This document shows, piece by piece, positions 2,198-9,707 of a stretch of 32,058 bases of DNA. Each line of letters opens with the position of its first letter. The first letter of the stretch is position 1. Both the position numbers and the translations under genes were made by a program. Below the pieces are notes generated by a model. It was not told the origin of the DNA and did not search any database. It was given only the letters and a program-made list of their open reading frames with translations. This DNA comes from a bacterium (GTDB taxonomy: Bacteria > CLD3 > SB21): positions 6,325-38,382 of the forward strand of contig JAEUSJ010000008.1 in the NCBI GenBank assembly GCA_016788215.1, read 5' to 3'.

Positions 2198-3313
2198 GTG
2201 GAAATTAGACAAATTACGAAATCGGATTTAAATGATTTCATAAAGTTCGAATGGGAAGTATACAAGGACGATCCTAATTGGGTCCCTCATCTTCTGATCG
2301 AGCGTAGAGAATTTTTAGACCCGAAAAAAAATCCGTTCTTTGAACACAGCGACGTTGCTTATTTTCTGGCCTACAAAGACAGCCGGATCGTCGGCCGTAT
2401 TGCCGCCGTGATCAATCGGGCGCATAATTCATTTCATGAAGACCGTGTCGGGTTTTTCGGGTTGTTTGATTGTTTTAACGATCAGGGAATTGCCGATGCG
2501 CTCCTGGCAAAAGCAAAATCGTATGTCGCGTCCAAAGGCATGACGTCGCTCCGCGGGCCAGTCAATTTATCCACCAACGATGAATGCGGATTGCTTGTCG
2601 ACGGATTGAATAAACCCGCGCAGATCATGATGACATATAATCCGCCGTATTACATCACGCTTCTCGAAAAAAACGGGTTTCAGAAAGCAAAAGACCTGCT
2701 GGCATACTATGTGGACGTTCCTTCGGAAGTACCGGAACGGCTGCGCCGCGGCGTGGATATCATTATGAAGCGTAATGAATTCACCATACGCACGGTCAAG
2801 ATCAAAGATTTCAAGAACGAAGTTCAGCGCATCAAAAAGATTTATAATGCCGCATGGGAACGCAATTGGGGATTTATCCCGATGACGGACAAGGAATTCG
2901 ACCATCTCGGCGTGCAGATGAAGCAGATTTTGGATCCTAAATTTTTGTTTATAGCAGAGCATAAAGGCGAACCGATAGGATTTTCGCTGACCATTCCCAA
3001 TATTAATGAAGGACTGATCAAGATCCGCGACGGGCGATTGCTTCCGTTCGGACTGATCAAACTGCTTTGGCATACGCGAAAAGGGAAATTGAAATCCGTT
3101 CGCGTGATCACATTGGGCGTCACACCGGAACACCGGAATTCCGGAATCGATATAGTTTTTTATTACAAATCATTCGAAGAAGCAATCCGGCAAAAACTCA
3201 CATGGGCGGAAATGTCATGGATACTCGAGGACAATATCCCCATGAACCGCGCTTTGGAGCGTATGGGCGCTACCGTATATAAAACGTACCGCCTTTACGA
3301 AATGCCGGTTTAA
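2198..3313 (+). CDS. GNAT-fold acyltransferase, candidate bacterial ceramide synthase (bCerS-like)
   Basis: A 371-residue protein starting at GTG 2198; the only nearby ATG (2186) runs straight into a stop. It looks like two acetyltransferase-like halves: an N-terminal one with FLAYKDSRIVGRIAAVIN and a C-terminal one with FIAEHKGEPIGFSLTIPN followed by VITLGVTPEHRNSGIDIVFY, the usual GNAT acyl-CoA-binding region. There is no signal peptide. It is the first gene of a tight operon with an extended SDR (9 nt downstream) and a PAP2-type membrane enzyme. Bacterial ceramide synthases belong to a GNAT-like family and are often encoded near an SDR ceramide reductase, so sphingoid-base N-acylation is a reasonable hypothesis. 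A generic N-acetyltransferase remains possible. The GNAT call is firm; the ceramide role is inference. Confidence 0.8.
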   Translation: MEIRQITKSDLNDFIKFEWEVYKDDPNWVPHLLIERREFLDPKKNPFFEHSDVAYFLAYKDSRIVGRIAAVINRAHNSFHEDRVGFFGLFDCFNDQGIADALLAKAKSYVASKGMTSLRGPVNLSTNDECGLLVDGLNKPAQIMMTYNPPYYITLLEKNGFQKAKDLLAYYVDVPSEVPERLRRGVDIIMKRNEFTIRTVKIKDFKNEVQRIKKIYNAAWERNWGFIPMTDKEFDHLGVQMKQILDPKFLFIAEHKGEPIGFSLTIPNINEGLIKIRDGRLLPFGLIKLLWHTRKGKLKSVRVITLGVTPEHRNSGIDIVFYYKSFEEAIRQKLTWAEMSWILEDNIPMNRALERMGATVYKTYRLYEMPV

Positions 3314-3321
3314 GGAATAAT

Positions 3322-4311
3322 TTGAAAGCACTTGTTACTGGCGCAACCGGTTTTATCGGAAGTCATTTAGTTGAATTATTGCTCGCAAAAGGATACGAAG
3401 TCATTTGTACGGTACGTCCGACCAGCGATCTTATTTGGCTCAAAGGGCTGAATATCAGGTTAGTTCAAGGCGACATCACCGACCGTGAGTCGCTCGTTGG
3501 GCCGGTCAAAGATGCGGATTATATTTTCCATGTCGGAGGCATTACCAAAGCGAAGAAGGAAGCGGACTATTATAAGGTCAATGCCGACGGCTCGCGTATT
3601 TTATATGAAGTCTGTCTTGAGCATAATCCGGGAATAAAAAAAATCGTTCATCTTAGCAGTTTAGCCGCGGGGGGGGCTGCGCAGATCGGCCGGCCACGAA
3701 TGGAAACCGATACCGATTCGCCGCTCACATACTACGGCAAGAGTAAACTGGAAGGTGAAAAGTACGCTGTTCAGTACAGCAAGACTCTGCCGATTACGAT
3801 CCTTCGGCCTCCGGCAGTTTACGGCCCCAGAGAAAAAGATATTTTCTTTTATTTTCAGTTGATCAGTAAACATCTCAAGCCGCAATTAGGATGGAAGAAA
3901 AAATACCTCAGTATGATTTATGTTAAGGACCTGGTGAACGCGGCCCTGCTTGCCGCCCAATCGCCGCAAAGTAACGGCCAGATTTATTATGTAGATGACG
4001 GAAGCATTTACACCTGGCAGGATTTGAGCAGGGAAATACAAAAAGCGATGCAGACCTGGACCCTGCCGCTATTGGTTCCCGAATGGTTAATCACTGCTGC
4101 GGCCTATGTGAGTGAAGCGTTGGCGTCGTTATCTTCCAAACCCGCTTTGCTGAACAAACAGAAAATAATTGAATTGAAACAAAAGTCCTGGGCAACTTCT
4201 TCGGATAAAATTCGTAATGAACTCGGTTTCCAAAGCGAGTATGACCTGAAAAAAGGTTGCAGAGAAACCGTGAATTGGTACCGTGAACAAGGCTGGATAA
4301 AATTAAAATAG
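3322..4311 (+). CDS. Extended SDR, NAD(P)-dependent epimerase/dehydratase family, candidate ceramide reductase
   Basis: A 329-residue cytoplasmic enzyme starting at TTG 3322 with AAGGAA just upstream. The N-terminus has the extended-SDR nucleotide-binding motif GATGFIG (residues 7-13). HLSSLAAGG supplies the catalytic Ser (112 or 113), and YYGKSK supplies the Tyr138-xxx-Lys142 pair. ILRPPAVYGPRE is the usual substrate-side motif of epimerase-like SDRs. The enzyme should reduce, oxidise or epimerise its substrate with NAD(P). It lies between the GNAT protein (9 nt gap) and the PAP2 enzyme (1 nt gap), so the three are almost certainly co-transcribed. Bacterial 3-oxo-ceramide reductases (CerR) are extended SDRs annotated this way, which fits the neighbours, but a sugar-nucleotide or hopanoid-type epimerase cannot be excluded. 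Confidence 0.88.
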   Translation: MKALVTGATGFIGSHLVELLLAKGYEVICTVRPTSDLIWLKGLNIRLVQGDITDRESLVGPVKDADYIFHVGGITKAKKEADYYKVNADGSRILYEVCLEHNPGIKKIVHLSSLAAGGAAQIGRPRMETDTDSPLTYYGKSKLEGEKYAVQYSKTLPITILRPPAVYGPREKDIFFYFQLISKHLKPQLGWKKKYLSMIYVKDLVNAALLAAQSPQSNGQIYYVDDGSIYTWQDLSREIQKAMQTWTLPLLVPEWLITAAAYVSEALASLSSKPALLNKQKIIELKQKSWATSSDKIRNELGFQSEYDLKKGCRETVNWYREQGWIKLK

Positions 4312-4312
4312 A

Positions 4313-5257
4313 GTGACTATGTTTGAATTATTACATAATAAATTCTCTCCTACGCGAACCGAAACAATCGTTCTGCCCCAAAAAAAATTACCGGATATGC
4401 TCAATCCTAACGATTGGGCTTTTTTGATTTATATTTTTGTCGTGGGGTTGGTCGTTTTAATATTTCATTCCAATTTACCGGATTGGCCATGGTATATAGC
4501 CGCTCAGGCAAGCATTGTCGTAATCACGCTGATGATCATTCGTTTTTTTCACCAAAGCTCGATTAATGTTCTCCAGATGCTTCGTCATTGGTACCCGATT
4601 TTTTCATTCACTTTTCTTTATATGCAGGCCGGCCTGCTGAATCAGTTGGTATTCCAGGGCTACGTGGATGACTTTTTTCTAAGAATTGACCTTTGGATTT
4701 TCGGCGTCAATCCCAATATCTGGCTGTATGACCGGGTGAATAATTTTTATTTTAATGAATTTATTCATCTGTGTTATTTTTCATACTATATTTTGCCGGC
4801 TGCATTTGGCGTAATTCTCTATATTACCAAAGATAAAGAATTCTACCGCACGCTTTTCGGAATTTCCATCACGTTCTACTTTTGTTATTTTCTTTATATT
4901 TTGATTCCCGCCGCAGGCCCGGTGGATCAGCGCGTAGGCCGGTTTGAGGATGGAGGATTATTTGTTCCTGTGATGAATTGGATTTACTCCGAAGTCGAAA
5001 AACCCGGCGCGGCATTCCCGAGTTCACACGTCGCCATAGCATTAATCACGCTCATGTATGCGTACCGCCTGCACCGCAGAGTGTTCTGGGTATTTTTGCC
5101 GTTTATCGTTGGCCTGATCTTTTCAACGTTTTACGGGTTTTATCATTATGTGATAGATTCGATCGCCGGAGCGGCGATCGCGGTGGGTTCGTACTATTTA
5201 TGCAATTCTCTATTCGACAAATACGCCAAAGCAAAATTTCCTGATCATTTTCCTTAG
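4313..5257 (+). CDS. PAP2-superfamily integral membrane enzyme, AUR1/inositol-phosphoceramide-synthase-like
   Basis: A 314-residue membrane protein beginning GTG ACT ATG at 4313; the ATG at 4319 is an equally good start. About six hydrophobic segments lie between residues 37 and 300. The PAP2 catalytic signature is present in order: PAAGP (199-203), PSSHV (236-240) with His239, and HYVID (278-282) with His278 and Asp282. The phosphatase/phosphotransferase active site is therefore complete and membrane-embedded. The layout, with the PAAGP segment before PSSH, resembles the AUR1/IPC synthase branch, which transfers a phospho-head group to ceramide. Simple lipid phosphatase activity is the alternative. 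It is the last gene of the acyltransferase-SDR operon. Its final codons form the left copy of a direct repeat that brackets hipBA. Confidence 0.85.
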   Translation: MTMFELLHNKFSPTRTETIVLPQKKLPDMLNPNDWAFLIYIFVVGLVVLIFHSNLPDWPWYIAAQASIVVITLMIIRFFHQSSINVLQMLRHWYPIFSFTFLYMQAGLLNQLVFQGYVDDFFLRIDLWIFGVNPNIWLYDRVNNFYFNEFIHLCYFSYYILPAAFGVILYITKDKEFYRTLFGISITFYFCYFLYILIPAAGPVDQRVGRFEDGGLFVPVMNWIYSEVEKPGAAFPSSHVAIALITLMYAYRLHRRVFWVFLPFIVGLIFSTFYGFYHYVIDSIAGAAIAVGSYYLCNSLFDKYAKAKFPDHFP

Positions 5258-5258
5258 G
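5233..5258 (+). repeat. Left copy of a 26-bp imperfect direct repeat flanking hipBA
   Basis: The last codons and stop of the PAP2 gene plus one base (core CTGATCATTTTCCTTAGG) recur at 7203-7228 in the same orientation with 22 of 26 bases matching. The two copies bracket the complete hipBA unit and its operator, as a duplicated target or attachment site would. Confidence 0.6.
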
Positions 5259-5302
5259 AATGGCGCATGCACGGCTCGTTTTTTTGCAAAAAAAAAAGTT
5301 AG

Positions 5303-6601
5303 TTATATCCTCAACAGGAATGTGCTTCGAATGGCTCCGATTTGATCTCGATTTACATCTGCTTTCTTGGCATACGTATTCCAATTCAAAATGGTGTCAA
5401 TCGTTTTGGCGATAATCTCGTCCGCTTTCTTAATGTTCATTTTTTTGGCCGTTGCCATTAGATCCTTCCTTTGGATGCCGTCTCTTTTTCCGTTGATACT
5501 CATCTGGTGCTCCTTCATCCATTTATTTTTTGGATCAAAAGCATATGTTAAATCGTAGGCCGGAGATAATCGCCACAGCCCGCTTTCGTCCATAATGAAA
5601 GAGATGTTTTTGGTATGGTCGTCTTGATTTCTAGCTATGACATTAAAAACCATTCGCCGGTACATGTTCTCGGTATCGGTGTATGGTAATTTTAGCTGGC
5701 GCATTATTTGGAATGCTAGCTCATACGAATTGGCTGAAGGGTTGTTATAATCAAAATGTGCGATCGCACAAAGGGTTTGCATGTGGAGTTTCTTTGTCCC
5801 ATCGCGATCGAACCGCCTCGACATGAAATGCGCACGTTTATTTTCTTTGAGCAATTTACATGAGGACATCTCGATGCCGCAGTCTTTTGCCATGAGGTAA
5901 TACGCATACTCGATTTTTCCATAACCCTTCGGGTCGCCTAACTTCTGATTCGTGACGCCGTCAAATTTAATAACCCAGTATGCATAATCTTTCAGGCCGT
6001 CTATCTGACCGGAACGCACATCTCCCGTAATCTCGTTGTACGCAATAATGGCTTTGGCTCTTGCACCGCCTGCGGAGGAACCAACGCGGACAATTTCTAA
6101 TAAGCCTTTGTTTGTTTTATCATGAATATTGGTCTGAAGTTTTTTTCTTTCCGTAAGAACGTCCTTTGCGAGCTTGACCAGTTTTTTTATTTCAACAGGA
6201 TTGGATTTTTCATCAAATGGAGAAATCGCCGGTTCATATTCCAACGCGCCCATGCCCCGCTGGCCGATATAGCATAATCGCTCTACAGGGCTGAAACTGC
6301 GGACATCACGGCCCTGTTGGGCGAGCCAGGCATCAATCAGGGTATTGCCGAACTTGTCCGGCAAGCTATCGCTCAATAGACCAGGCAACCCTCTGTAAGT
6401 TTCTTTGTTTAGCGTGGGGAAAGAAAATATCCTGCTGCCCGAACGAATTTCTTCCAACGGCATGGTAATCGGCGCCAGGTCCCAGTTTTTTTTTAAATAG
6501 GCCTCATCAAATTCCAATGTGGCATAACCGCGGTCTGGATTCCATAAGACCGCGCCGGCAAAAGTTCCCCAAATATTCACTTTGGCTGCAATAGTTGTCA
6601 T
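5303..6601 (-). CDS. hipA: HipA-family serine/threonine kinase toxin
   Basis: A full-length 432-residue HipA. The N-terminal subdomain (residues 1-110, with GLPGLLSDSLPDKFGN) is present, so this is the fused rather than the split HipST form. VGSSAGGARAK (173-183) is the Gly-rich ATP loop holding the usual autophosphorylated serine (Ser175). YWVIKFD (208-214) carries the ATP-site Lys. DDHTKN (327-332) gives catalytic Asp327 and Asn332, and SPAYD gives the metal-binding Asp350, with the same 18-residue Asn-to-Asp spacing as in Escherichia coli HipA. The kinase should be active. HipA proteins phosphorylate translation factors such as glutamyl-tRNA synthetase and cause growth arrest; the target here is unknown. 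It starts 13 nt after hipB ends, so the pair is co-transcribed and autoregulated through HipB. Confidence 0.95.
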   Translation of the reverse strand: MTTIAAKVNIWGTFAGAVLWNPDRGYATLEFDEAYLKKNWDLAPITMPLEEIRSGSRIFSFPTLNKETYRGLPGLLSDSLPDKFGNTLIDAWLAQQGRDVRSFSPVERLCYIGQRGMGALEYEPAISPFDEKSNPVEIKKLVKLAKDVLTERKKLQTNIHDKTNKGLLEIVRVGSSAGGARAKAIIAYNEITGDVRSGQIDGLKDYAYWVIKFDGVTNQKLGDPKGYGKIEYAYYLMAKDCGIEMSSCKLLKENKRAHFMSRRFDRDGTKKLHMQTLCAIAHFDYNNPSANSYELAFQIMRQLKLPYTDTENMYRRMVFNVIARNQDDHTKNISFIMDESGLWRLSPAYDLTYAFDPKNKWMKEHQMSINGKRDGIQRKDLMATAKKMNIKKADEIIAKTIDTILNWNTYAKKADVNRDQIGAIRSTFLLRI

Positions 6602-6614
6602 GTGGTTTTCTGCG

Positions 6615-6959
6615 TCATTTCTTATTTTTTACAGGTTTTCTTTTGGGCGATGCCTTTAGACGTTGCCGCTCCTGTATTTTTAATACTTGAAGAGGGCTTA
6701 TTTGCGATTCCTCACGAAACACGTCTAAGATATCTAGTTTATCCAAAGCACGAAGCACTTGTACAAGAGTAAGCAAGGTGGCCGCACGCCCGGATTCCAT
6801 CCGGCTTATGGTCGTCCGGTCGACCCCAGCTATACGCGCCAGTTTTTCCTGCGAAATATTTTTCTTCAGGCGCATACGCCGAAGGCTTCCGCCTATTTCC
6901 TTTACAATAACAGGGTCGGCCATAGCCGATCTTATTTGTTTGTAGCTTGTAAGCTCCAT
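6615..6959 (-). CDS. hipB: HipB-like antitoxin, XRE-type DNA-binding protein
   Basis: A 114-residue protein with a helix-turn-helix at about residues 25-80 (LRRMRLKKNISQEKLARIAGVDRTTISRMESG). The N-terminal SYKQIRSAMADPVIVKEIG block is normal for this antitoxin subfamily, which supports the start at 6959 over the internal ATG at 6923. The C-terminus is strongly basic (ending KASPKRKPVKNKK), unlike the short tail of E. coli HipB. It should neutralise HipA and repress its own promoter. A palindrome (6942-6957) overlaps its first codons, and a 28-nt perfect palindrome lies about 115 nt upstream of the start. Both are probable operators. Confidence 0.92.
   Translation of the reverse strand: MELTSYKQIRSAMADPVIVKEIGGSLRRMRLKKNISQEKLARIAGVDRTTISRMESGRAATLLTLVQVLRALDKLDILDVFREESQISPLQVLKIQERQRLKASPKRKPVKNKK
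6942..6957. promoter_or_regulatory. Operator-like palindrome overlapping the hipB start
   Basis: GTAGCTTGTAAGCTCC matches the consensus GTAGCTTNNAAGCTAC found in the upstream palindromes with one change in the right arm. It covers the first six codons of hipB, where a bound HipB dimer could block initiation. The matching position before the DUF1697 gene (7852-7866) keeps only a worn version. Confidence 0.5.
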
Positions 6960-7039
6960 TAGGTCTTCAAATTCCGTATTCGGTTGCTTTCGTGCTACAT
7001 AATATAAGGCATATTTGGCTGTACCGCAATATATTTTTT

Positions 7040-7102
7040 GTAGCTTATACGCATCGTTATAGTTAAGTTATGTTAATAACGTAGCTTATAAGCTACGTTA
7101 TT
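7040..7102. promoter_or_regulatory. hipBA upstream operator region with a 28-nt perfect palindrome
   Basis: Positions 7075-7102 form a perfect 28-nt palindrome centred on GTAGCTTATAAGCTAC (7081-7096). A half site GTAGCTTATA starts at 7040, exactly 41 nt earlier. A degenerate site lies at 6983-6998. Repeated sites at fixed spacing upstream of an XRE antitoxin gene are typical HipB operators, allowing cooperative looping or repression. Confidence 0.65.
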
Positions 7103-7202
7103 GTAGTACAGTAATTCATAAACTCAGAGCGGGGACACGGGTTTTTCGTAGGGCGGTAACCGTGATGGGTTAATACTTATCTGCAATCATCTGTTCAACA
7201 AA

Positions 7203-7228
7203 TAAGTTTTCTGATCATTTTTCTTAGG
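7203..7228 (+). repeat. Right copy of the 26-bp direct repeat flanking hipBA
   Basis: Core CTGATCATTTTTCTTAGG repeats the 3' end of the PAP2 gene (5233-5258) with four mismatches, about 1.97 kb away. No open reading frame continues through this copy, so it looks like a duplicated gene end left by an insertion. The rest of 7103-7293 holds nothing I can identify. Confidence 0.6.
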
Positions 7229-7293
7229 TGTGTAAACTCAAATCCCTATCTCTAACCGTTTGCTGAAGTGCGTTACCGGCTTCGTGCTGATAC

Positions 7294-7833
7294 TTATCGT
7301 ACACCAAAACTCCCAGGTACCAAGACCTTGGCGATCGCAGTGATCGTATTCCAGTTGCGCGTAGTGACCGGTACTCCGAAGAGACGGTCAACAGTGCCAA
7401 GATAGCTGATGACCTTCATGTCACGGCGATACTGACCAAAAACGAATCGATCTTTTCTATCGATGATTTTCACCAGCCATCTTCCGACAGAAGGTAAGTC
7501 CAGAGGCATCCGGGGTTCAGAGCGGGGGCGGCGGGACAGGAAGCTCACAAAGTGGACGATATCCGGTCGCACCGGCATGTGCGCGAAAGGGTTCTGGGAC
7601 ATCAGGTCGAGAATTTCCCGTCCTTTGCAAATAACGACCTGTGTACTAACCGGAAGCCTTCGAGCCAATTCAGCGCGAAGTTTTGTCTGGGTGATCGGTT
7701 GCCGAATCACAAAAGTGCCCGCCGCACCGATGTTCACAACATCCAAATGTTTCAATTGTTCGGTAAGGATCGTAGGTCGGAAGGTCCTATGACCGCCGAC
7801 GTTGACACCTCTCATAAGAACCACAAGTGCCAT
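7294..7833 (-). CDS. DUF1697 family protein
   Basis: A 179-residue protein from the ATG at 7833, preceded by AAGG; the reading frame stays open to 7938, but the family begins with the MALVVLMRGVNVGGH motif. The C-terminal signature TRNWNTITAIAKVL is the conserved DUF1697 ending (usual form TRNWNT), and the length is normal, so the gene is intact. DUF1697 proteins are small soluble proteins of no proven function. What stands out is the upstream DNA: the 45 nt around the start and two palindromes further out correspond in order and spacing to the hipB control region, as if this gene took over a duplicated hip promoter. It may therefore respond to HipB. No toxin or antitoxin motif is visible in the protein. 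Confidence 0.85.
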   Translation of the reverse strand: MALVVLMRGVNVGGHRTFRPTILTEQLKHLDVVNIGAAGTFVIRQPITQTKLRAELARRLPVSTQVVICKGREILDLMSQNPFAHMPVRPDIVHFVSFLSRRPRSEPRMPLDLPSVGRWLVKIIDRKDRFVFGQYRRDMKVISYLGTVDRLFGVPVTTRNWNTITAIAKVLVPGSFGVR

Positions 7834-8225
7834 AGCCGACCTTACGTTTTTGTTGCCTTTGGCTCCATAAGGTGCTCCACTGTAGTATGCGGCTACTTTT
7901 ATGCTACCATATATACGGCGTCCCGTGCAGGAAAGCACATATTTGTTGTAGCTTTTAAGCTACATTATTATCAATAACAAGTGATAATGTTGCTTATAAG
8001 CTACTGTGTGTAAACAGCCGCCATAATTAAATCTTCGACATGTGTGAACACGCCTGCGATTCGCGTGTAAGCCGCTTAAATCCATTCCATTTAATTACTC
8101 AAACCTAAATTTATGCTAACATCAAACCGGCGGTTTGCCCAACATATCTATTTTAATGGTATAAGATAGAATCTCAAATTTATAATATGCGAATGCGAGA
8201 CGTATGTTCGTGACCTATTCAAACG
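7834..8225. promoter_or_regulatory. Gene-free region with a hip-type control region upstream of DUF1697
   Basis: GTAGCTTTTAAGCTAC (7948-7963) and GTTGCTTATAAGCTAC (7989-8004) lie 117 and 158 nt from the DUF1697 start. The corresponding hip sites at 7040 and 7081 lie 119 and 160 nt from the ATG at 6921-6923, with the same 41-nt step. The two sites here also sit in a larger inverted arrangement (ACATTATTATCA facing TGATAATGT). Beyond 8005 I see only a small hairpin, CAAACC-GGC-GGTTTG (8123-8137), with no T-run, and no gene. Confidence 0.6.
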
Positions 8226-9020
8226 TTATTGAATCTCATGTCCCTGGAAAGAAACTACTCCATTAGTAGTAATATCGAATGTCCATTTGTTATATCCAAA
8301 ACATCCGGACATGCAATCACCATACCCATAGTAGAAGATGACACGTGAATATCCCGAATGGGTTTCTATTTCCAGTTTTGTCAAAACATTGTAACCAGTA
8401 TCGGGCTGTGTATCACCAACACCCGGTACTCCGTTAAAAATTTTTGCCAAAGCCTTGGTGTTTAGCGGCTCTGTTGTATTAATGATGACGTAAGCATAAT
8501 TATTGAAACCCCATAATAAGGTGCTATTAATTTCCAAAGAGTATAATAGTAACAGACTATCAAATGTTGCATTACCTGTCGGAACAATTCCATGATGAAC
8601 GTTTTGCATCCATTGATTAGCTGTATCGGCTGTTAAAATCAAGCCGGATGTAACCTTCGTCTTCTTATGGATTCCCTTTTGAATAATAAGTGTGTCGAGC
8701 AAGGGAAACGAATCACGGCTATCGTATAGATACGCTAATGGAAAAAGGAACCTGTTTACTAAGGAATCAGGAATGCGAATGAGCGATGTGCACGGAAGCG
8801 CATTTGCAAATAGATAATCGATTGTAAAATTTGTTGCATCATCTAAGAAATGTGCTTTGCCGCTATCGCTCACCGAATACGTAGTATTCACTACAATGTT
8901 GGGGCAATCAGGCAAGATCTCATTGATTGGTAAATCATCATTATCGAGTTTAGATGCATGTTCTTGACAAGAAAATGCCAATACGATTAGACAACATAAA
9001 CCGTATAAAAAAAATTTCAT
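8226..9020 (-). CDS. Predicted lipoprotein of unknown function
   Basis: A 264-residue protein with a lipoprotein signal (MKFFLYGLCCLIVLAFSCQE); the likely acylated residue is Cys18. The start at 9020 has a strong GGAAG site. The mature part is rich in Asp, Asn and Thr with few charged clusters. Its C-terminal domain contains a Tyr/Gly-rich beta stretch (SGYSRVIFYYGYGDCMSGCFGYNKWTFDI) with two cysteines that could form a disulphide. I do not recognise a family; it is probably anchored to the outer membrane facing the periplasm or surface. It stands alone, and its 5' leader resembles that of the DUF3078 gene at 17608. Confidence 0.8.
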   Translation of the reverse strand: MKFFLYGLCCLIVLAFSCQEHASKLDNDDLPINEILPDCPNIVVNTTYSVSDSGKAHFLDDATNFTIDYLFANALPCTSLIRIPDSLVNRFLFPLAYLYDSRDSFPLLDTLIIQKGIHKKTKVTSGLILTADTANQWMQNVHHGIVPTGNATFDSLLLLYSLEINSTLLWGFNNYAYVIINTTEPLNTKALAKIFNGVPGVGDTQPDTGYNVLTKLEIETHSGYSRVIFYYGYGDCMSGCFGYNKWTFDITTNGVVSFQGHEIQ

Positions 9021-9707
9021 ATGCTCTTCCTTTCTTTGGTAATGATTCTTTTTTTATAGTCAGGGGTTGACTTGCTTGTTGTGAGATTTGAAATCTGTAT
9101 CGCATGACTCGTTTATTCATAATATTAAGAATGTTGCCAAAATCTACCATAAAAGACAATTAAAGAAATGTTTCACGTGGATGTGTCTGATGCCGTTCGT
9201 GTAATATTAGAAAGTTCATGAATGGCCCTACGATTAGAAACGACACTACTGATATATATTATAATATAAACGCCCATAGACGATTTGTCAATGAATTTGT
9301 TGTTGTTGAGTCTGATCAAAGCTTTAAATATACCACCCCTCTGGGGTTCAATTCCTTTTCCCGTTTCTTTTCTACTTATATACCGCCCCTGCCGGGGCTG
9401 AGCCTTTTACGCCAGAGGCGTAAAATATCTGTTGACAAAACAAGTAAATGAATTATAGTCCCGTAGGGACGAAATAAAATCCGGTCTCATTTTTCATACC
9501 ATTTTCACCGATACTATCGTTGAAAAGATTAGCTTCACAACCGATCATGTTATTTACACCAAACCCTACGCTTTCAATTAGCACCGGAATAGTTACCTAT
9601 GCTTGTCCTCAAAGCATGGACATTGTTCAGATTTCCATTCTTGTATCAATTCTTTTGAATCTAACAATTGGATACATTATCTTGATTGAAACAATAACCC
9701 TTATTTT
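9021..9707. other. Gene-poor 687-nt intergenic region
   Basis: Apart from the stem-loop block at 9335-9470 and a doubtful small reading frame ending at 9711, no coding sequence with a ribosome binding site or recognisable product is visible. It separates the divergent lipoprotein and SDR genes, so promoters for both should lie here; I could not identify them with confidence. Confidence 0.6.
9335..9470. repeat. Block of four short intergenic stem-loops
   Basis: Four inverted repeats follow one another: ACCCC-TCT-GGGGT (9335-9347), GCCCC-TGCC-GGGGC (9385-9398), TTTTACGCC-AGA-GGCGTAAAA (9405-9425) and GTCCC-GTA-GGGAC (9458-9470). Each has a perfect stem of 5-9 bp with a 3-4 nt loop. Such GC-capped hairpin series look like an intergenic REP-like element rather than terminators. 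Confidence 0.65.

Follow-up and report, generated by a model that had tools for sequence, protein, structure and literature searches.

A close described counterpart of the locus reported here is the hipBA module of E. coli K-12, whose antitoxin HipB binds cooperatively to four operators (PMC3376134). Regulation by E. coli HipB of promoters beyond hipBA is attributed to Lin et al. 2013, as listed among the references of PMC7029023. A second point of comparison is promoter capture, which has been obtained experimentally by tandem duplication with 9-bp microhomology at its borders (PMC11111574). For capture by deletion or tandem duplication, that paper cites Anderson and Roth 1978 on Salmonella his, Blount 2012 on the E. 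coli citrate transporter, and Li and Bock 2019. Promoter capture is a known process, and the case described here is new.

We analyzed a window of 32,058 nucleotides, the whole stretch of DNA presented above, from a fragmented metagenome assembly of an uncultivated bacterium (G000; 621 contigs, contamination estimate 8.75%); comparison within the genus covered only three congeneric genomes. The window carries a hipBA module with its control region and an array of putative operators:

5303 to 6601, minus strand: hipA, HipA-family kinase toxin of 432 aa (Pfam HipA_C 2.4e-50, Couple_hipA 2.5e-15)
6615 to 6959, minus strand: hipB, HTH antitoxin of 114 aa, presumed autorepressor (Pfam HTH_3 2.9e-13, 50 bits)
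6919 to 7102, minus strand: hip control region, source copy (P), from the operators to hipB codon 13 (comparison with G001, alignment to the second copy)
6942 to 6957, no strand: putative operator O1, GTAGCTTGTAAGCTCC, 1 mismatch
6983 to 6998, no strand: putative operator O2, GTTGCTTTCGTGCTAC, 3 mismatches (2 mismatches in G001)
7040 to 7055, no strand: putative operator O3, GTAGCTTATACGCATC, 3 mismatches (1 mismatch in G001)
7081 to 7096, no strand: putative operator O4, GTAGCTTATAAGCTAC, perfect

Judged by its Pfam domains, this is an ordinary hipBA module. The C- and N-terminal domains of HipA are both present (HipA_C 171.6 bits, Couple_hipA 57.2 bits), as are the kinase motif residues (NQDDHTKN), and hipA has a dN/dS of 0.08 against G001, a genome of the same genus. 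The hipB gene lies directly upstream of hipA in the same operon, with a gap of 13 nt, and is 88% identical in G001; its product scores 35 bits against the couple_hipB profile TIGR03070, under that profile's cut-off. As in E. coli K-12, an HTH antitoxin stands beside a HipA kinase and four palindromic operators lie upstream of hipB. The operator, however, is TATCCN8GGATA in E. coli and GTAGCTTNNAAGCTAC here, and here the array stands a second time, before a gene outside any toxin–antitoxin system. A hipB start at 6923 in place of 6959 was raised by a dN/dS near 1 in codons 1-13, calculated from very few sites, and was rejected, since the distant HipB of G006 also carries the N-terminal SYK.

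The second array precedes a gene of the DUF1697 family:

7294 to 7833, minus strand: DUF1697-family gene, 179 aa (Pfam PF08002 1.3e-8)
7829 to 7836, minus strand: junction GCTATGGC (ATG regions of hip, G000, G002 and L042 compared)
7834 to 8004, minus strand: second hip control region (P'), quite probably captured, before DUF1697 (alignment, relatives, junction)
7842 to 7868, minus strand: remnant of the first 12 hipB codons, with the start codon intact (sequence and alignment with the hip copy)
7852 to 7866, no strand: decayed copy of O1 in P' (comparison with the hip copies)
7892 to 7907, no strand: decayed copy of O2 in P' (comparison with the hip copies)
7948 to 7963, no strand: candidate captured operator O3', GTAGCTTTTAAGCTAC, perfect
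7989 to 8004, no strand: candidate captured operator O4', GTTGCTTATAAGCTAC, 1 mismatch

The four sites in the hip region (6942, 6983, 7040 and 7081) form two pairs, with members 41 nt apart, and three of the four occupy the same places in G001. Of the corresponding pairs in P', the proximal one (7852-7866 and 7892-7907) has decayed; the distal one is still near perfect. Allowing at most one mismatch, the palindrome GTAGCTTNNAAGCTAC occurs four times in the 3.73-Mb assembly, always within the hip region or P'. Every site with two mismatches or fewer in G001 falls in the hip promoter; G002 and G006, which are without this hip promoter, contain only scattered 2-mismatch matches. We considered and rejected a genome-wide HipB regulon acting through this operator: the other matches in this assembly are three scattered 2-mismatch sites, within the yield of the reversed-pattern control. 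An earlier sequence-only reading of the window had placed palindromes 119 and 160 nt from the ATG at 6921-6923 in the hip locus and 117 and 158 nt from the DUF1697 ATG, each pair 41 nt apart, and these distances were confirmed. Of the four palindromes that it cited, those at 7081 and 7948 are perfect, whereas the one at 7040 has 3 mismatches (GTAGCTTATACGCATC) and the one at 7989 has 1. It overlooked two more sites in the hip region, 6942-6957 (1 mismatch) and 6983-6998 (3 mismatches).

The similarity of the two regions extends well beyond the palindromes. Local alignment in gene orientation of 6919-7102 with 7829-8004 gave a score of 122, compared with 45 or less in 1000 dinucleotide-preserving shuffles. 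The whole-length alignment contains two 1-nt gaps and 122 identical bases out of 175 aligned (~70%), runs from the operator at 7081-7096 or 7989-8004 to GGCTATGGC at the ATG, and keeps a constant register of ~910 nt. When the assembly was searched independently with the hip DNA, the second copy came up (68% identity, E 6.7e-9) but a third did not; among relatives, G001 has one such region where the window's assembly has two. A strict sigma-70 promoter was not found in the hip control region or in P', and the window contained no RNA families. Recurrence of palindromes by itself could come about by chance or convergence, the two regions being alike only through binding of the same regulator or through AT-richness. 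We give this explanation next to no credence: the homology is colinear over ~180 bp, includes non-operator and former hipB coding DNA, lies far above the shuffles, and is missing from other DUF1697 loci. Chance similarity was rejected on the dinucleotide shuffles, and the claims of the sequence-only reading that the hipBA control region is repeated before DUF1697, and that chance can hardly account for the matching order and spacing, were both borne out.

Comparison with relatives gave the direction of the change. In G001, hipBA occupies the same position and the operators keep their distances (84% identity of 6605-7096 to the G001 hip locus), and DUF1697 has no match anywhere in the assembly. 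G002, also of the same genus, lacks a hipB of this kind but carries, flanked by the same PAP2 and SDR genes, a DUF1697 gene that has undergone an internal deletion. The G002 gene matches window positions 7732-7836 at 94%, and the match ends at the junction. Upstream of the gene, G002 is homologous to L042, the Ignavibacteria assembly with the nearest DUF1697 relative of full length (98, shuffled sequences reaching at most 41). The window from 7834 onward matches neither upstream region (25, inside the shuffled range). Because G002 and L042 have a common upstream region, absent from the window, their arrangement is taken as ancestral and that of the window as derived. Among 62 other DUF1697 loci from many phyla, none had the hip operators, and none had hipA or hipB within ~5 kb where that much flank was present; the idea that DUF1697 generally goes together with hipBA was rejected on this basis. 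The family members G003, G005 and G006 carry DUF1697 in other contexts.

At the start codon, the switch from donor to recipient is sharp. The 8 nt of GCTATGGC are the exact overlap of the hip homology and the G002 homology, being common to the hip promoter/hipB side and to the ancestral DUF1697 start, and they join hipB codon 13 to the DUF1697 ATG. The same correspondence had been proposed earlier from the sequence; it holds for a hipB start at 6959, the start favoured by the conservation of SYK in a distant HipB. A 1-nt deletion in the hipB-derived leader, which probably came later than the capture, leaves an 8-codon upstream ORF (MEPKATKT*) terminating 8 nt ahead of the ATG of DUF1697.

These observations make it quite probable that DUF1697 captured a copy of the hip promoter, with control by HipB through the retained operators as the presumed consequence. 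The ancestor would have had DUF1697 under its native promoter, followed downstream, in transcription order, by a hipBA module that had inserted behind the PAP2 gene. Illegitimate recombination at the 8-nt microhomology GCTATGGC would have fused codon 13 of hipB with the start codon of DUF1697, replacing the gene's own promoter with the copied hip control region. Most simply, this would be a 910-bp tandem duplication with breakpoints at the two copies of GCTATGGC, which would put P directly before DUF1697; the rest of the upstream duplicate would later have been lost, leaving DUF1697 behind a hip promoter copy with a four-operator array. Since in the direction of transcription the hip source comes 910 nt after the target, a single tandem duplication could suffice, and the event probably took this route. 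In 8005-9707, no remnants of the lost duplicate (a second PAP2 end or a second DUF1697) were detected.

The same fusion could also have arisen from a second complete hipBA operon that once stood upstream of DUF1697 and lost hipB' and hipA' through a deletion reaching from codon 13 of hipB to the ATG of DUF1697; the functional outcome would be the same. A decayed second hip operon had also been named as an alternative by the sequence-only reading. The microhomology fits a deletion too, and P' has diverged from the two hip copies to a similar extent (122/175 identical bases to that of G000, 129/176 to that of G001), as a paralogous operon could be. However, this origin needs an extra copy, of whose hipA' and hipB' there is no trace in the window or the assembly, whereas the 910-bp tandem duplication accounts for spacing and junction in one step; we therefore regard a lost second operon as unlikely, although worth keeping in mind. 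The near-equal distance implies that the capture is probably as old as the split between G000 and G001 or older. At sites where the two hip copies differ, P' sides with G000 at 14 and with G001 at 20; the dating is only indicative. The central claim of the sequence-only reading, that a copy of the hip promoter/operator captured an unrelated gene, is supported by the shuffle significance, the restriction of the operator to this locus in the assembly, and the polarity given by the relatives, with the non-hip upstream region of G002 and L042. Its further suggestion that DUF1697 may belong to a HipB regulon fits the retained operators.

HipB is the likely binding protein of these operators, as in E. 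coli, because they co-occur with this hipB: in G001 they lie in the hip promoter, and G002 and G006 show only scattered 2-mismatch matches. HipB dimers from the adjacent operon would probably occupy the two distal operators that P' retains and tie transcription of DUF1697 to the autoregulation of hipBA. DUF1697 would then be repressed when HipB is plentiful and derepressed upon HipB degradation, the presumed direction of regulation, and repression may be weaker than at hipBA, only the distal pair being intact. Control of DUF1697 by HipB, as repression or tuning together with hipBA, is considered likely because O3 and O4 are conserved above their surroundings and the DUF1697 frame is intact, with a dN/dS of 0.14-0.20 against relatives on long branches. 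Between P' and the two hip copies, O3 and O4 agree at 27/32 and 29/32 bases, and the sequence outside the operators at 73/112 and 77/113 (p = 0.028 and 0.007 in a one-sided Fisher test, from few bases and chosen after the sites had been seen).

It is also possible, although we lean against it, that P' is a scar under no selection, with DUF1697 expressed from P' or not at all, regulation by HipB without consequence, and operators that persist since the copy has not yet decayed. P' has indeed lost two of its four operators and the hipB reading frame to decay, and DUF1697, absent from G001 and disrupted in G002, can be dispensed with in this genus. On the other hand, P' retains one perfect and one 1-mismatch operator despite ~35% divergence of the flanks, its operator bases are kept better than those flanks, and the DUF1697 frame is unbroken. 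A stronger proposal, that DUF1697 has been recruited as a third component of the hipBA circuit, controlled by HipB/HipA, made upon HipB depletion and contributing to the HipA-induced state, seems improbable to us; if true, it would provide the first physiological context for a DUF1697 protein.

As in known promoter captures, illegitimate recombination appears to have linked a coding region, at its start codon or close to it, to a promoter from the neighbourhood. Here, by contrast, the event is natural and on an evolutionary timescale, the promoter carries the operator array of an autorepressor, and the duplicate unit is no longer visible. The locus would thus be a clean natural case of an autoregulated toxin–antitoxin promoter and its operator array copied onto an unrelated neighbour, with ancestral state, junction and microhomology all visible. 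As with the E. coli HipB targets attributed to Lin et al. 2013, the antitoxin would act beyond the promoter of its own operon, but the second target here would be a copied whole control region immediately beside hipBA. Such copying would offer one concrete route for an antitoxin to gain a regulon past its own operon, as well as a testable regulatory handle on DUF1697, a protein family of unknown function.

The 179-aa protein is, by its profile match, a divergent DUF1697 member (35.8 bits against PF08002, cut-off 24.4). Its AlphaFold model has a pLDDT of 89, and the sole significant Foldseek match was 2HIY (SP0830 of S. pneumoniae; E 1.4e-4, TM 0.58-0.62). Assigning a function from the fold was abandoned, since this match is itself without known function, and we found no literature on DUF1697 function. 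In L043, L046, L047, L048, L050 and L053, from several phyla, genes of the DUF1697 subfamily have ~20-60 bp of flanking DNA in common on both sides, often including a AGGAGGAAAC ribosome-binding site; these flanks suggest horizontal movement of the gene as a compact unit. In L042, the gene is bracketed by an 18-nt inverted repeat, GCGTTATGCGCAACCCGC (3075-3092 and 3879-3896), which vaguely resembles integron attC ends.

The surrounding region is itself variable. A PAP2-type gene lies at 4313-5257, and a copy of its 3' end is found on the far side of hipBA:

7146 to 7228, plus strand: decayed second copy of the PAP2-type gene's 3' end (68% identity to PAP2 in G000)

The G001 copy of this 3' end is 88% identical to the PAP2 3' end of the window. 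hipBA lies between direct copies of the PAP2 3' end in both G000 and G001, and G002 has a single copy and no hipBA, an arrangement that looks like an empty integration site. Between the PAP2 and SDR genes (5258-9707), G000 carries hipBA, DUF1697 and a lipoprotein-like ORF; the same spot holds hipBA and two ORFs of unknown family in G001, and only the broken DUF1697 in G002. The lipoprotein-like ORF (8226-9020) has relatives of 40-45% identity elsewhere in G001 and G002.
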